From Calothrix sp. NIES-4101 (GTDB lineage: Bacteria > Cyanobacteriota > Cyanobacteriia > Cyanobacteriales > Nostocaceae): a stretch of 64,000 bases of DNA. The position numbers and the translations under genes were made by a program. The notes under the pieces were generated by a model that saw only the letters and a program-made list of their open reading frames with translations, was not told the DNA's origin and did no database searches. Numbering within the stretch: position 1 is the first letter of the stretch; the number at the start of each line of letters is the position of its first letter. The stretch is taken from contig AP018280.1 in the NCBI GenBank assembly GCA_004296455.1, positions 2,294,001 through 2,358,000 on the forward strand. Direction: 5' to 3'. This document shows, piece after piece, positions 1,159 to 4,471 of this stretch.

Positions 1159-1533
1159 ATGGTGTTGTCGGTTAGTGAGCGGACATTTACTCAAGAAGTT
1201 TTAGAATCTCCTGTTCCTGTTTTAGTAAATTTTGAAGCGCCTTGGTGCGGTTTGTGTCGCATCATCCATCCGTTACTATTACAGTTTAAAATCCAATGTC
1301 AAGAAGATATCAAACTAGTCAGAATTAATGCTGATGATAATTTCAAATTATCCAATAATTATCGACTCACATCTCTACCAACTTTGCTTCTGATTGAAAA
1401 TGGTCATGTCCGACAACGACTAGAGGGATTTCGCGGGCGAGATGACTTGTTATTGGCTTTAGAAGCCATCAAAACTTCCTACATCAAATATCCCCAGAGA
1501 TATAACCAGCCAATACTTACAAATGTGGAATAA
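1159..1533 (+). CDS. Thioredoxin-like protein with a CGLC active site
   Basis: A 124-residue cytosolic thioredoxin-fold protein. The active site reads WCGLC (C30 and C33) instead of the usual WCGPC. The cis-proline of the fold is seen in the SLPTL segment (P74). The expected beta-alpha order is intact, with a charged extension of about 20 residues after the fold. Both redox cysteines are present, so disulfide reductase activity is likely. Replacing proline by leucine between the cysteines normally shifts the redox potential, so this is probably a specialised paralogue and not the main TrxA. A GAGG box lies about five bases upstream of the ATG. The gene appears to be monocistronic. Confidence 0.85.
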   Translation: MVLSVSERTFTQEVLESPVPVLVNFEAPWCGLCRIIHPLLLQFKIQCQEDIKLVRINADDNFKLSNNYRLTSLPTLLLIENGHVRQRLEGFRGRDDLLLALEAIKTSYIKYPQRYNQPILTNVE

Positions 1534-1646
1534 TTCTTAGACACCATAGAGTAGATGTGGCAAAAAATGTCTAGATTTTCTTGCATTTATCCTAGACTCT
1601 GAGGTTAGGAATAGATATTTTCATCCAGTCCTCTTGCCTCTAATAG

Positions 1647-1713
1647 AAACCGCAGAACTGCGACTGCTGGTATGAGAGTCATACTGTGTGTCGCATTTTT
1701 ATCTCTGCGGTTT
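1647..1713. ncRNA. Candidate structured RNA: three stacked helices
   Basis: Three nested inverted repeats share one axis. The outer arms 1647-1656 and 1704-1713 (AAACCGCAGA and TCTGCGGTTT) pair over 10 bp without mismatch. The middle arms 1659-1664 and 1690-1695 (TGCGAC and GTCGCA) pair over 6 bp. The inner arms 1670-1675 and 1679-1684 (GTATGA and TCATAC) pair over 6 bp around a GAG loop. This could be a small RNA, a processed leader or trailer element, or an unusual terminator for the upstream gene. Both strands would fold equally well, so orientation is unknown. I cannot assign it to a known family. Confidence 0.35.
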
Positions 1714-2280
1714 TCATAATCAACTCAAACATCGTAAATTCATTTAGTTGTCCTCAAAATAAAAATAATTAACTTTAGTCCTCTTGCTCACCCATGCTTT
1801 CCAGACTCGAGAAATATTCCCAAAGAAAATAGTAATATTTGAGTAATATTTTTTGCTTAAATTCTGACTGGAATTCACAGAACACGAGACTGGAGAATGT
1901 TCTCAATAATGATTTTATTTTCATTTACAGTCAGCATAAACTAGTAATTCATAATGAAAAGTATTAGCAATTACTCCGAGAAAAAGCATAAAGATGCCAT
2001 ACCAAGCGACAAATCATGAGTTAAGTTTGAAATAGATTTATGAGTCATTTGTGATTTCTGAGGCAAGTTTTGAGTGTGCCGAAGCCTTTTGTGATGGGAA
2101 ACAACAAGTTGCGTCTTGATGCTGTACAGGACTCAATATTTCCGGTTTTCATGCAGCATCCTATCAGGGTAGCAACTTCAGTTTACTTTGCACTCAAGGC
2201 TACGCAAAAGCGAGAAAGAAAAGCCACTACAGGATACAGTACAAAATCTGGTTCAGAATCTAAAAGCAAGCTTAACGACT

Positions 2281-2302
2281 CCACACGAAACTGTTCGGGT
2301 GG
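2281..2302 (+). promoter_or_regulatory. Hairpin in the ndhF leader
   Basis: The arms CCACACGAA (2281-2289) and TTCGGGTGG (2294-2302) pair with one mismatch around a 4-base ACTG loop, 84 bases before the ndhF ATG. A short T-rich stretch follows. It could be a leader structure, a processing site or an attenuator. Confidence 0.3.
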
Positions 2303-2386
2303 GGTATTTTATGCTAGAAGGTGTGTGTCACAATTATTAACAGTTCCGACAACTTAATCAAGAAATCTATAAAGTAGGCGTCAGTG

Positions 2387-4471
2387 ATGGAAGTAATCTA
2401 TCAGTATGCCTGGCTAATTCCGGTACTCCCACTGCTTGGGGCAATGCTGGTCGGGCTAGGATTAATCTCATTGAATCAGGTGACAAATCGTCTGCGACAG
2501 CTTAATGCCGCATTAATCATCTCGCTGATGGGCATGGCGATGGGACTATCGATCGCCATATTGTGGAGCCAAATTCAAGGACACCCACCCTACACCCATA
2601 TCTTTGAATGGGCTTCAGCAGGTAATTTTCACCTCAGCATGGGCTACACGATTGACCATCTGACAGCCATGATGTTGGTCGTTGTCACGACCGTAGCTTT
2701 TTTGGTAATGATATATACCGATGGCTACATGTCACATGACCCAGGTTATGTCCGATTTTATTCTTACCTCAGCTTATTCGGTTCATCGATGCTGGGGTTA
2801 GTAATTAGCCCAAACCTAGTCCAGATTTATATTTTCTGGGAACTAGTAGGTATGTGTTCGTACTTGCTGGTTGGTTTTTGGTACGATCGCAAAGCCGCAG
2901 CCGATGCCTGCCAAAAGGCTTTTGTCACTAACCGTGTTGGTGACTTTGGTTTGCTTTTAGGGATTTTGGGGCTATTTTGGGCGACAGGAAGCTTCGAGTT
3001 TGATGTCATGGGCAGCAGGCTCGCGGAACTCGTACAAAATGGTTCGGTCAGCAATTTTCTCGCTATTCTGCTGGCAATTTTAGTCTTCCTGGGTCCAGTC
3101 GCAAAATCAGCACAATTTCCCCTCCATGTCTGGCTTCCAGATGCGATGGAAGGGCCAACACCGATTTCCGCTCTCATCCACGCCGCCACAATGGTTGCAG
3201 CAGGTGTATTCCTGGTAGCGCGGATGTATCCAGTATTTGAACATGTACCCGCAGCAATGAATGTGATTGCTTTTACGGGTGCATTTACAGCGTTTTTGGG
3301 AGCGACGATCGCAATTACCCAGAACGATATCAAGAAAGGCTTGGCTTACTCCACCATCTCCCAACTTGGCTACATGGTGATGGCGATGGGAGTAGGTGCA
3401 TATAGTGCCGGACTTTTCCACCTGATGACCCACGCTTACTTCAAAGCGATGTTGTTCTTAGGTTCGGGTTCGGTAATCCACGGTATGGAAGGTGTTGTAG
3501 GTCACAATCCTGCCCTGGCACAAGATATGCGATTAATGGGTGGATTACGGAAATACATGCCAGTTACCGGTTTTACATTCCTAATTGGTTGTTTGGCAAT
3601 TTCCGGTATCCCTCCGTTTGCTGGTTTCTGGTCGAAGGATGAAATTCTCGGTGCGGCATTTGCAGCTAACCCGTTATTGTGGTTTGTTGGCTATGCAACT
3701 GCTGGTATCACCGCATTTTATATGTTCCGTATGTATTTCTCCACCTTTGAGGGTGGATTCCGGGGTACAGATAAGAAAATCATTGAGAAACTTGAGAAAG
3801 CGGCAACCATTTTAGTTGCAGGGGAAGCGCCCGCACCTAACTTTGGTCCCGGAGCCATGAAGCAGGGCGAATTAGCGGCTACAGGTGGCGGACATCACGA
3901 TGATCATCACCACAGCAGCGAACCTCATGAGTCGCCTTGGACAATGACGCTACCTTTGGCAGTGTTGGCGATTCCTTCGATTTTGATTGGTTTGGTGGGT
4001 ACGCCCTTTGCCAACTACTTTGAGGAATTTATTTACTCCCCCAACGAAACCTTGGCGGAAGTCATGGAAAAAACTGCCGAATTTGACATTAACGAGTTTT
4101 ATGTCATGGCAGGTAGTTCGGTGGGTATTTCCTTAATTGGGATTACTCTGGCTTCCTTGATGTACTTGATGAAGAAAATTGACCCCAGTGCGATCGCATC
4201 CCAAATCAAACCACTATACGAGCTTTCCCTCAATAAGTGGTATTTCGACGATATTTATCACAAAGTCTTTGTTTTGGGCTTGCGCCGTCTAGCTCGTCAA
4301 GTTATGGAAGTTGACTTCCGTGTTGTTGATGGTGCTGTTAACCTGACAGGTTTCTTTACCCTCGTCAGTGGCGAAGGTTTGAAATATATCGAAAATGGTC
4401 GCGCTCAGTTCTATGCCTTGATTGTGTTTGGTGCAGTTTTAGCATTAGTGATTATCTTTGGTGTCACTTGA
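2387..4471 (+). CDS. ndhF: NAD(P)H-quinone oxidoreductase subunit 5 (NdhF)
   Basis: A 694-residue polytopic thylakoid protein, the large proton-pumping antiporter-like subunit of the NDH-1 complex that passes electrons from ferredoxin to plastoquinone. The central Proton_antipo_M domain is clear, with the motifs VGMCSYLL, GPVAKSAQFPLHVWLPDAMEGPTP and SALIHAATMVAAGV. A His-rich loop (around residues 505-515) precedes the C-terminal domain, which carries the long lateral helix expected of NdhF. A GTG lies one codon upstream at 2384, but the ATG at 2387 gives the usual MEVIYQ start. Pairing with ndhD downstream fits an NdhF1/NdhD1 module of NDH-1L, used in respiration and cyclic electron flow. 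Assigning the F1 subtype rests on this neighbour. Confidence 0.95.
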   Translation: MEVIYQYAWLIPVLPLLGAMLVGLGLISLNQVTNRLRQLNAALIISLMGMAMGLSIAILWSQIQGHPPYTHIFEWASAGNFHLSMGYTIDHLTAMMLVVVTTVAFLVMIYTDGYMSHDPGYVRFYSYLSLFGSSMLGLVISPNLVQIYIFWELVGMCSYLLVGFWYDRKAAADACQKAFVTNRVGDFGLLLGILGLFWATGSFEFDVMGSRLAELVQNGSVSNFLAILLAILVFLGPVAKSAQFPLHVWLPDAMEGPTPISALIHAATMVAAGVFLVARMYPVFEHVPAAMNVIAFTGAFTAFLGATIAITQNDIKKGLAYSTISQLGYMVMAMGVGAYSAGLFHLMTHAYFKAMLFLGSGSVIHGMEGVVGHNPALAQDMRLMGGLRKYMPVTGFTFLIGCLAISGIPPFAGFWSKDEILGAAFAANPLLWFVGYATAGITAFYMFRMYFSTFEGGFRGTDKKIIEKLEKAATILVAGEAPAPNFGPGAMKQGELAATGGGHHDDHHHSSEPHESPWTMTLPLAVLAIPSILIGLVGTPFANYFEEFIYSPNETLAEVMEKTAEFDINEFYVMAGSSVGISLIGITLASLMYLMKKIDPSAIASQIKPLYELSLNKWYFDDIYHKVFVLGLRRLARQVMEVDFRVVDGAVNLTGFFTLVSGEGLKYIENGRAQFYALIVFGAVLALVIIFGVT

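Follow-up and report, generated by a model that had tools for sequence, protein, structure and literature searches.

Very small mobile repeats of cyanobacteria were reportedly described by Elhai and colleagues in 2008. That work is a reference in PMC3733652. A second point of comparison is the end of transcripts. According to PMC13289151, cyanobacteria lack Rho, how most of their transcripts end is an open question, and only 22% of the transcription units of Synechococcus elongatus resemble canonical intrinsic termination. In one survey (PMC8355165), 98% of the termination sites that were identified correctly were no more than 80 nt from the stop codon.

Here we examine a hairpin in a window of 64,000 nucleotides, the whole stretch of DNA analysed, from Calothrix sp. 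NIES-4101. It occupies positions 1647-1713 of the + strand, between trx, encoding a thioredoxin-fold protein of 124 aa (1159..1533, +; Pfam Thioredoxin PF00085, E 7.6e-21), and an ndhF-type gene for an NADH dehydrogenase subunit of 695 aa (2384..4471, +; Pfam Proton_antipo_M, _C and _N, and tblastn in relatives), which begins with a GTG start codon at 2384. The hairpin starts 113 nt past the trx stop, on the trx coding strand, and is separated by 670 nt from ndhF on the same strand. Of the 217 family genomes, own included, 215 have a trx match with E<=1e-20. The trx-ndhF order is kept in 30/30 of the best-scoring loci of these 215 genomes, own included, and in 81/81 loci of a second, overlapping set made up of the window and the best 80 of 155 loci.

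None of the 81 intergenic stretches is longer than the one here (850 nt); in the remaining 80 loci they measure 176-703 nt. Two same-genus relatives (L012 and L013) have 426 and 444 nt; in the collection, the other members of the genus match Calothrix elsteri CCALA 953 and Calothrix sp. CSU_2_0. Alignment to these two loci leaves a segment of about 400 nt without counterpart (1534..1925, approximate boundaries). Clear homology starts at about 1925, and the hairpin falls inside the unmatched part. Upstream of trx, a perfect 14-bp inverted repeat (859-872/1112-1125) is present with 239 nt between its arms; the 291-nt stretch that contains it has no second copy in the own genome.

Three helices without mismatch, of 10, 6 and 6 bp, make up the hairpin and lie along a single axis, exactly as the earlier note on this DNA had described it. 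The outer helix, P1, pairs AAACCGCAGA (1647-1656) with TCTGCGGTTT (1704-1713) over 10 bp, and P2 pairs TGCGAC (1659-1664) with GTCGCA (1690-1695) over 6 bp, both seen in the sequence and in the RNA fold. P3 is the hairpin GTATGA-GAG-TCATAC (1670-1684), with 6-bp arms at 1670-1675 and 1679-1684 and a GAG loop. The internal loops are 2/8 and 5/5. Immediately 3' of the P2/P3 stem lies a terminator-like, U-rich stretch, TTTTTATC (1696-1703, +). In the minimum free energy (MFE) structure of the + strand, one C-G pair and three G-U pairs form across the 5/5 loop and close part of it. When both strands are folded, G-U pairs lengthening P2 and P3 are confined to the + strand RNA. The MFE of 1647-1713 is -28.2 kcal/mol on the + strand (z -5.09) and -26.5 kcal/mol on the - strand (z -6.58), and 0 of 200 shuffles were as low in either case.

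To place these values, we counted nests, defined by mismatch-free helices no shorter than 10, 6 and 6 bp, internal loops with no more than 10 nt a side and an overall span near 90 nt. These thresholds were chosen once the hairpin was already known. One such nest occurs in the 64-kb window versus none in 20 window shuffles. A single nest, the hairpin itself, is found in 800 kb of the own genome, and none in 60 local dinucleotide shuffles of 400 kb each (24 Mb). When the helices are relaxed to 8/6/6, nests occur at 3 places in the 800 kb versus 13 in the 24 Mb of shuffled sequence. The hairpin is not a chance product at the 10/6/6 strictness, with thresholds set post hoc, and the earlier judgement that it was unlikely by chance is borne out by the absence of such nests from the shuffled 24 Mb. 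Its stability is ordinary for the non-coding DNA of its own genome. Outside ORFs of at least 100 aa, with RNA genes left unmasked, the 800 kb contain 22 loci in which a 70-nt window on either strand folds to -28 kcal/mol or lower; with a limit of -25 kcal/mol there are 78.

As far as we searched, the hairpin appears to be an orphan. In the own genome, blastn returned, besides the hairpin itself, five matches of 14-20 nt with no such hairpin around them by eye; the 457-nt segment matched at 40 more places, each time over a short length and never with an E below 0.036, and a covariance model found a single copy, with one further match (E 3.5) taken as chance. The same approach detected the hairpin in 0/2 other genomes of the genus. 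Across the family, the DNA search of 217 genomes (own included) gave matches of 20-26 nt in 3 of the 216 others and no homologue of the hairpin. These three matches (L008-L010) overlap the 3' side of P1 in surroundings without such a hairpin and were set aside. The family covariance-model search, run with stricter filters on 208 genomes (own included), gave matches in 2 of the 207 others, at E 0.69 and 0.88, which we take as chance. In the phylum (386 genomes, own included), DNA matches of 26-33 nt were found in 3 of the 385 others, all outside the hairpin. Among 80 named loci that share this gene order, the covariance model gave two matches only, both non-significant (E 2.6 and 4.3). First-look candidates were scored for at most 4 (family DNA), 24 (family model) and 2 (phylum DNA) per genome, which, together with the stricter filters, means that a diverged relative could be missed; covariance model R1, made from a single sequence given twice, favours near relatives.

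Phages and plasmids gave no match. Viral contigs and genome contigs gave no exact match to patterns that permit near-identical arms only, and a pattern with spacers of 15-45 nt gave zero matches, which excludes only copies spaced more closely than the hairpin, whose own spacer is 47. Comparison with RNA family models agrees with the earlier statement that the hairpin matches no RNA family: Rfam 15 gave 0 matches above the gathering threshold in the window, and none of the four matches in a permissive scan of 1534-2383 overlaps 1647-1713. No paper on the hairpin or on the trx-ndhF intergenic region was among the literature matches listed, judged by titles and abstract openings. A striking hairpin, far beyond shuffled expectation, can therefore still be an orphan. 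Since it is an orphan despite its low folding z-score, a z-score alone should not be taken as a sign of a conserved RNA.

The orphan state bears on whether the hairpin has any function. It may have no present role and be a structural accident or a relic in non-coding DNA that was gained recently, such as a palindromic mobile element that has decayed and is left without its other copies; we regard this as a serious though lesser possibility. Such an origin agrees with the single copy and the lack of a homologue in what was searched, and with a lineage-specific stretch in which none of six peptides tested is a recognisable trace of a coding sequence. Furthermore, the hairpin is bracketed by an exact 11-bp direct repeat, AGTCCTCTTGC, at 1627-1637 and 1777-1787, which may be an insertion trace or chance. 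Against a relic, no terminal inverted repeats are visible by eye at the edges of the bracketed stretch, and nests of this strictness were absent from the shuffled sequence. Moreover, all three arm pairs are perfect, yet the internal loops contain no Watson-Crick pairs in register, and the 5/5 loop pairs only when shifted. A perfect palindrome in decay should instead show scattered mismatches. A repeat or mobile element was rejected on the single copy (blastn and covariance model) and the lack of phage or plasmid matches. A coding remnant was likewise set aside: six of the 12 stop-to-stop frames in 1550-1967 were tested, and their best matches (E 0.036 to a PHROGs family of unknown function, E 0.13 in Pfam) are taken as chance.

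With its structure, its intergenic position and a G+C content of 46% within visibly AT-rich flanks, the hairpin could also be a small non-coding RNA, either on its own or processed from the 3' untranslated region of trx. We consider this unlikely. A scan for sigma-70-like promoters only, on the + strand from 1534 to 1647, gave no site of at least 9/12, the searches above yielded neither a relative nor an Rfam match, and the flanks fold unremarkably (z -0.26 for 1534-1646 and -0.63 for 1714-1920). That a young, species-specific structured RNA, be it a small RNA or a regulator derived from the 3' untranslated region, has arisen in the newly gained trx-ndhF segment seems more doubtful still.

The reading that we favour, at about even chances, is a lineage-specific 3'-end hairpin of the trx transcript, perhaps a redundant one; the functionless relic comes next. 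The arrangement of the P2/P3 stem and UUUUUAUC argues for it, as does the density of stable hairpins between convergent genes. In the 800 kb, loci with a 70-nt MFE of -25 kcal/mol or lower occur at 0.68 per kb between convergent ORFs (16 loci, 23.4 kb), 0.47 per kb between tandem ORFs (42 loci, 88.5 kb) and 0.25 per kb between divergent ORFs (13 loci, 51.5 kb). The excess of convergent over divergent regions (binomial p = 0.008) is expected if many stable hairpins mark transcript ends. Against this reading, in tandem regions 25 of the 42 lie closer to the 3' end of the upstream gene, a slight excess only. At the locus itself, the P2/P3 stem alone (37 nt) folds at -15.4 kcal/mol, and with its tail at -16.0 kcal/mol (z -3.4), a stable stem-loop directly followed by the U-tract. 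On the + strand the U-rich stretch adjoins this stem; the - strand carries no equivalent U-tract by eye. The absence of the hairpin from the two same-genus relatives was counted for a lineage-specific element, and the restriction of the G-U pairs to the + strand RNA also speaks for a trx 3'-end hairpin.

We propose that this genome gained some 400 nt immediately behind the trx stop, or changed them beyond recognition. As RNA polymerase leaves trx, the 37-nt P2/P3 stem would fold, and UUUUUAUC behind it would favour release or pausing. Readthrough transcripts could also close P1 into a stable 67-nt stem, which might mark or protect the RNA 3' end. Both the transcription through the hairpin and its effect on RNA ends are what we infer from the sequence. 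In a classic terminator P1 has no role, because its 3' arm comes past the U-tract.

Function is made less likely by how far the hairpin lies from the stop codon, by its lack of conservation and by the outcome of a 30-nt rule. Modelled on PMC13289151, this rule requires at least 4 U in the 8 nt past a 30-nt window that folds below -10 kcal/mol. The hairpin fails it; the P2/P3 stem, at 37 nt, needs a longer window. Its start at 113 nt past the stop also lies beyond the 80-nt range of the survey (PMC8355165), and this argues against a terminator, as do the stronger z-score on the - strand (-6.58 vs -5.09) and the low share of canonical intrinsic termination in Synechococcus elongatus (22%, PMC13289151). 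The stable stem-loop and the U-tract agree with an intrinsic terminator, and the 30-nt rule does not; the elaborate terminator raised as one option in the earlier note may still be right.

Closer to ndhF, a conserved 11-bp stem-loop (arms 2278-2288/2295-2305, +) is followed by an ATTTTAT tail, the whole spanning 2278..2312. It aligns in 80 of the 81 loci (window included), where an ATTTTAT-like tail and a conserved GGTGTGTGTCACAATTATTAACAG-like block follow; the remaining locus (L111) lacks the anchor motif and was dropped ahead of alignment. The window copy of the stem has one A-G mismatch. Stem-loop, tail and the strongly conserved GGTGTGTGTCACAATTATTAACAG block together occupy 2278-2343, upstream of ndhF.

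Covariation was assessed with 66 distinct rows and 500 shuffles, on a structure drawn from that same alignment. Paired cells reach 93.0% versus a shuffled mean of 90.2, two-sided changes 22 cells versus 4.0, and the covariation score 0.163 versus 0.109, values that 0/500 shuffles attain in each case. Shifting the partner by 1 to 3 columns lowers pairing to 34-57%. On the other side, the four pairs with two-sided changes were reached by 50/500 shuffles and the 13 further pair types by 71/500, and pairs 15/41 and 23/33 fail in 21/66 and 15/66 rows. On both strands of 1534-2383, only 2309-2316, at this conserved element, passes the hairpin and U-tract rule. The stem-loop at 2278-2312 is therefore likely the usual, ancestral trx terminator and a better candidate than 1647-1713, and the block past it is likely the ndhF promoter or leader. 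With this second stem-loop and U-tract before ndhF, the hairpin would probably be redundant and under little constraint.

The same element weighs against reading the hairpin as a cis-regulatory leader of ndhF. The hairpin lies upstream of that gene on the same strand, but at a distance of 670 nt, with the terminator-like stem-loop (2278-2305) and the conserved block intervening, and without a significant match in the 80 loci that keep the gene order. We consider such a role very improbable, and the leader element raised earlier finds no support. Overall, the hairpin is real, an orphan as far as searched, and probably ordinary.

Among palindromes of other cyanobacteria, one in Iningainema tapete (L127:5657-5729) has an outer stem, GAACCACAGA/TCTGTGGTTT, that resembles P1, but its middle helix is not kept, and the covariance-model match is at chance level (14.9 bits, E 2.6). 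No palindrome of this type occurs in 800 kb of the Calothrix genome. The Iningainema region contains repeated ACACAGATGG-like units about 2.3 kb past its trx and looks like a dispersed repeat. With the repetitive extragenic palindromes and very small mobile repeats of cyanobacteria, our hairpin shares being a short, intergenic, palindromic element of a filamentous cyanobacterium. In contrast to them, it is single-copy with no repeat family found, and the several dispersed copies expected of such elements were not seen by blastn or covariance model. It differs from an intrinsic (Rho-independent) terminator in its long, two-part stem with a 5/5 internal loop, in the outer 10-bp helix that closes over the U-tract, and in its place 113 nt past the stop, outside the 30-nt rule and with another terminator-like element downstream. 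The likeness consists in a stem-loop followed by UUUUUAUC, downstream of a gene and on its coding strand. With its orphan hairpin followed by a conserved terminator-like stem-loop, this locus would make a small test case for cyanobacterial termination.
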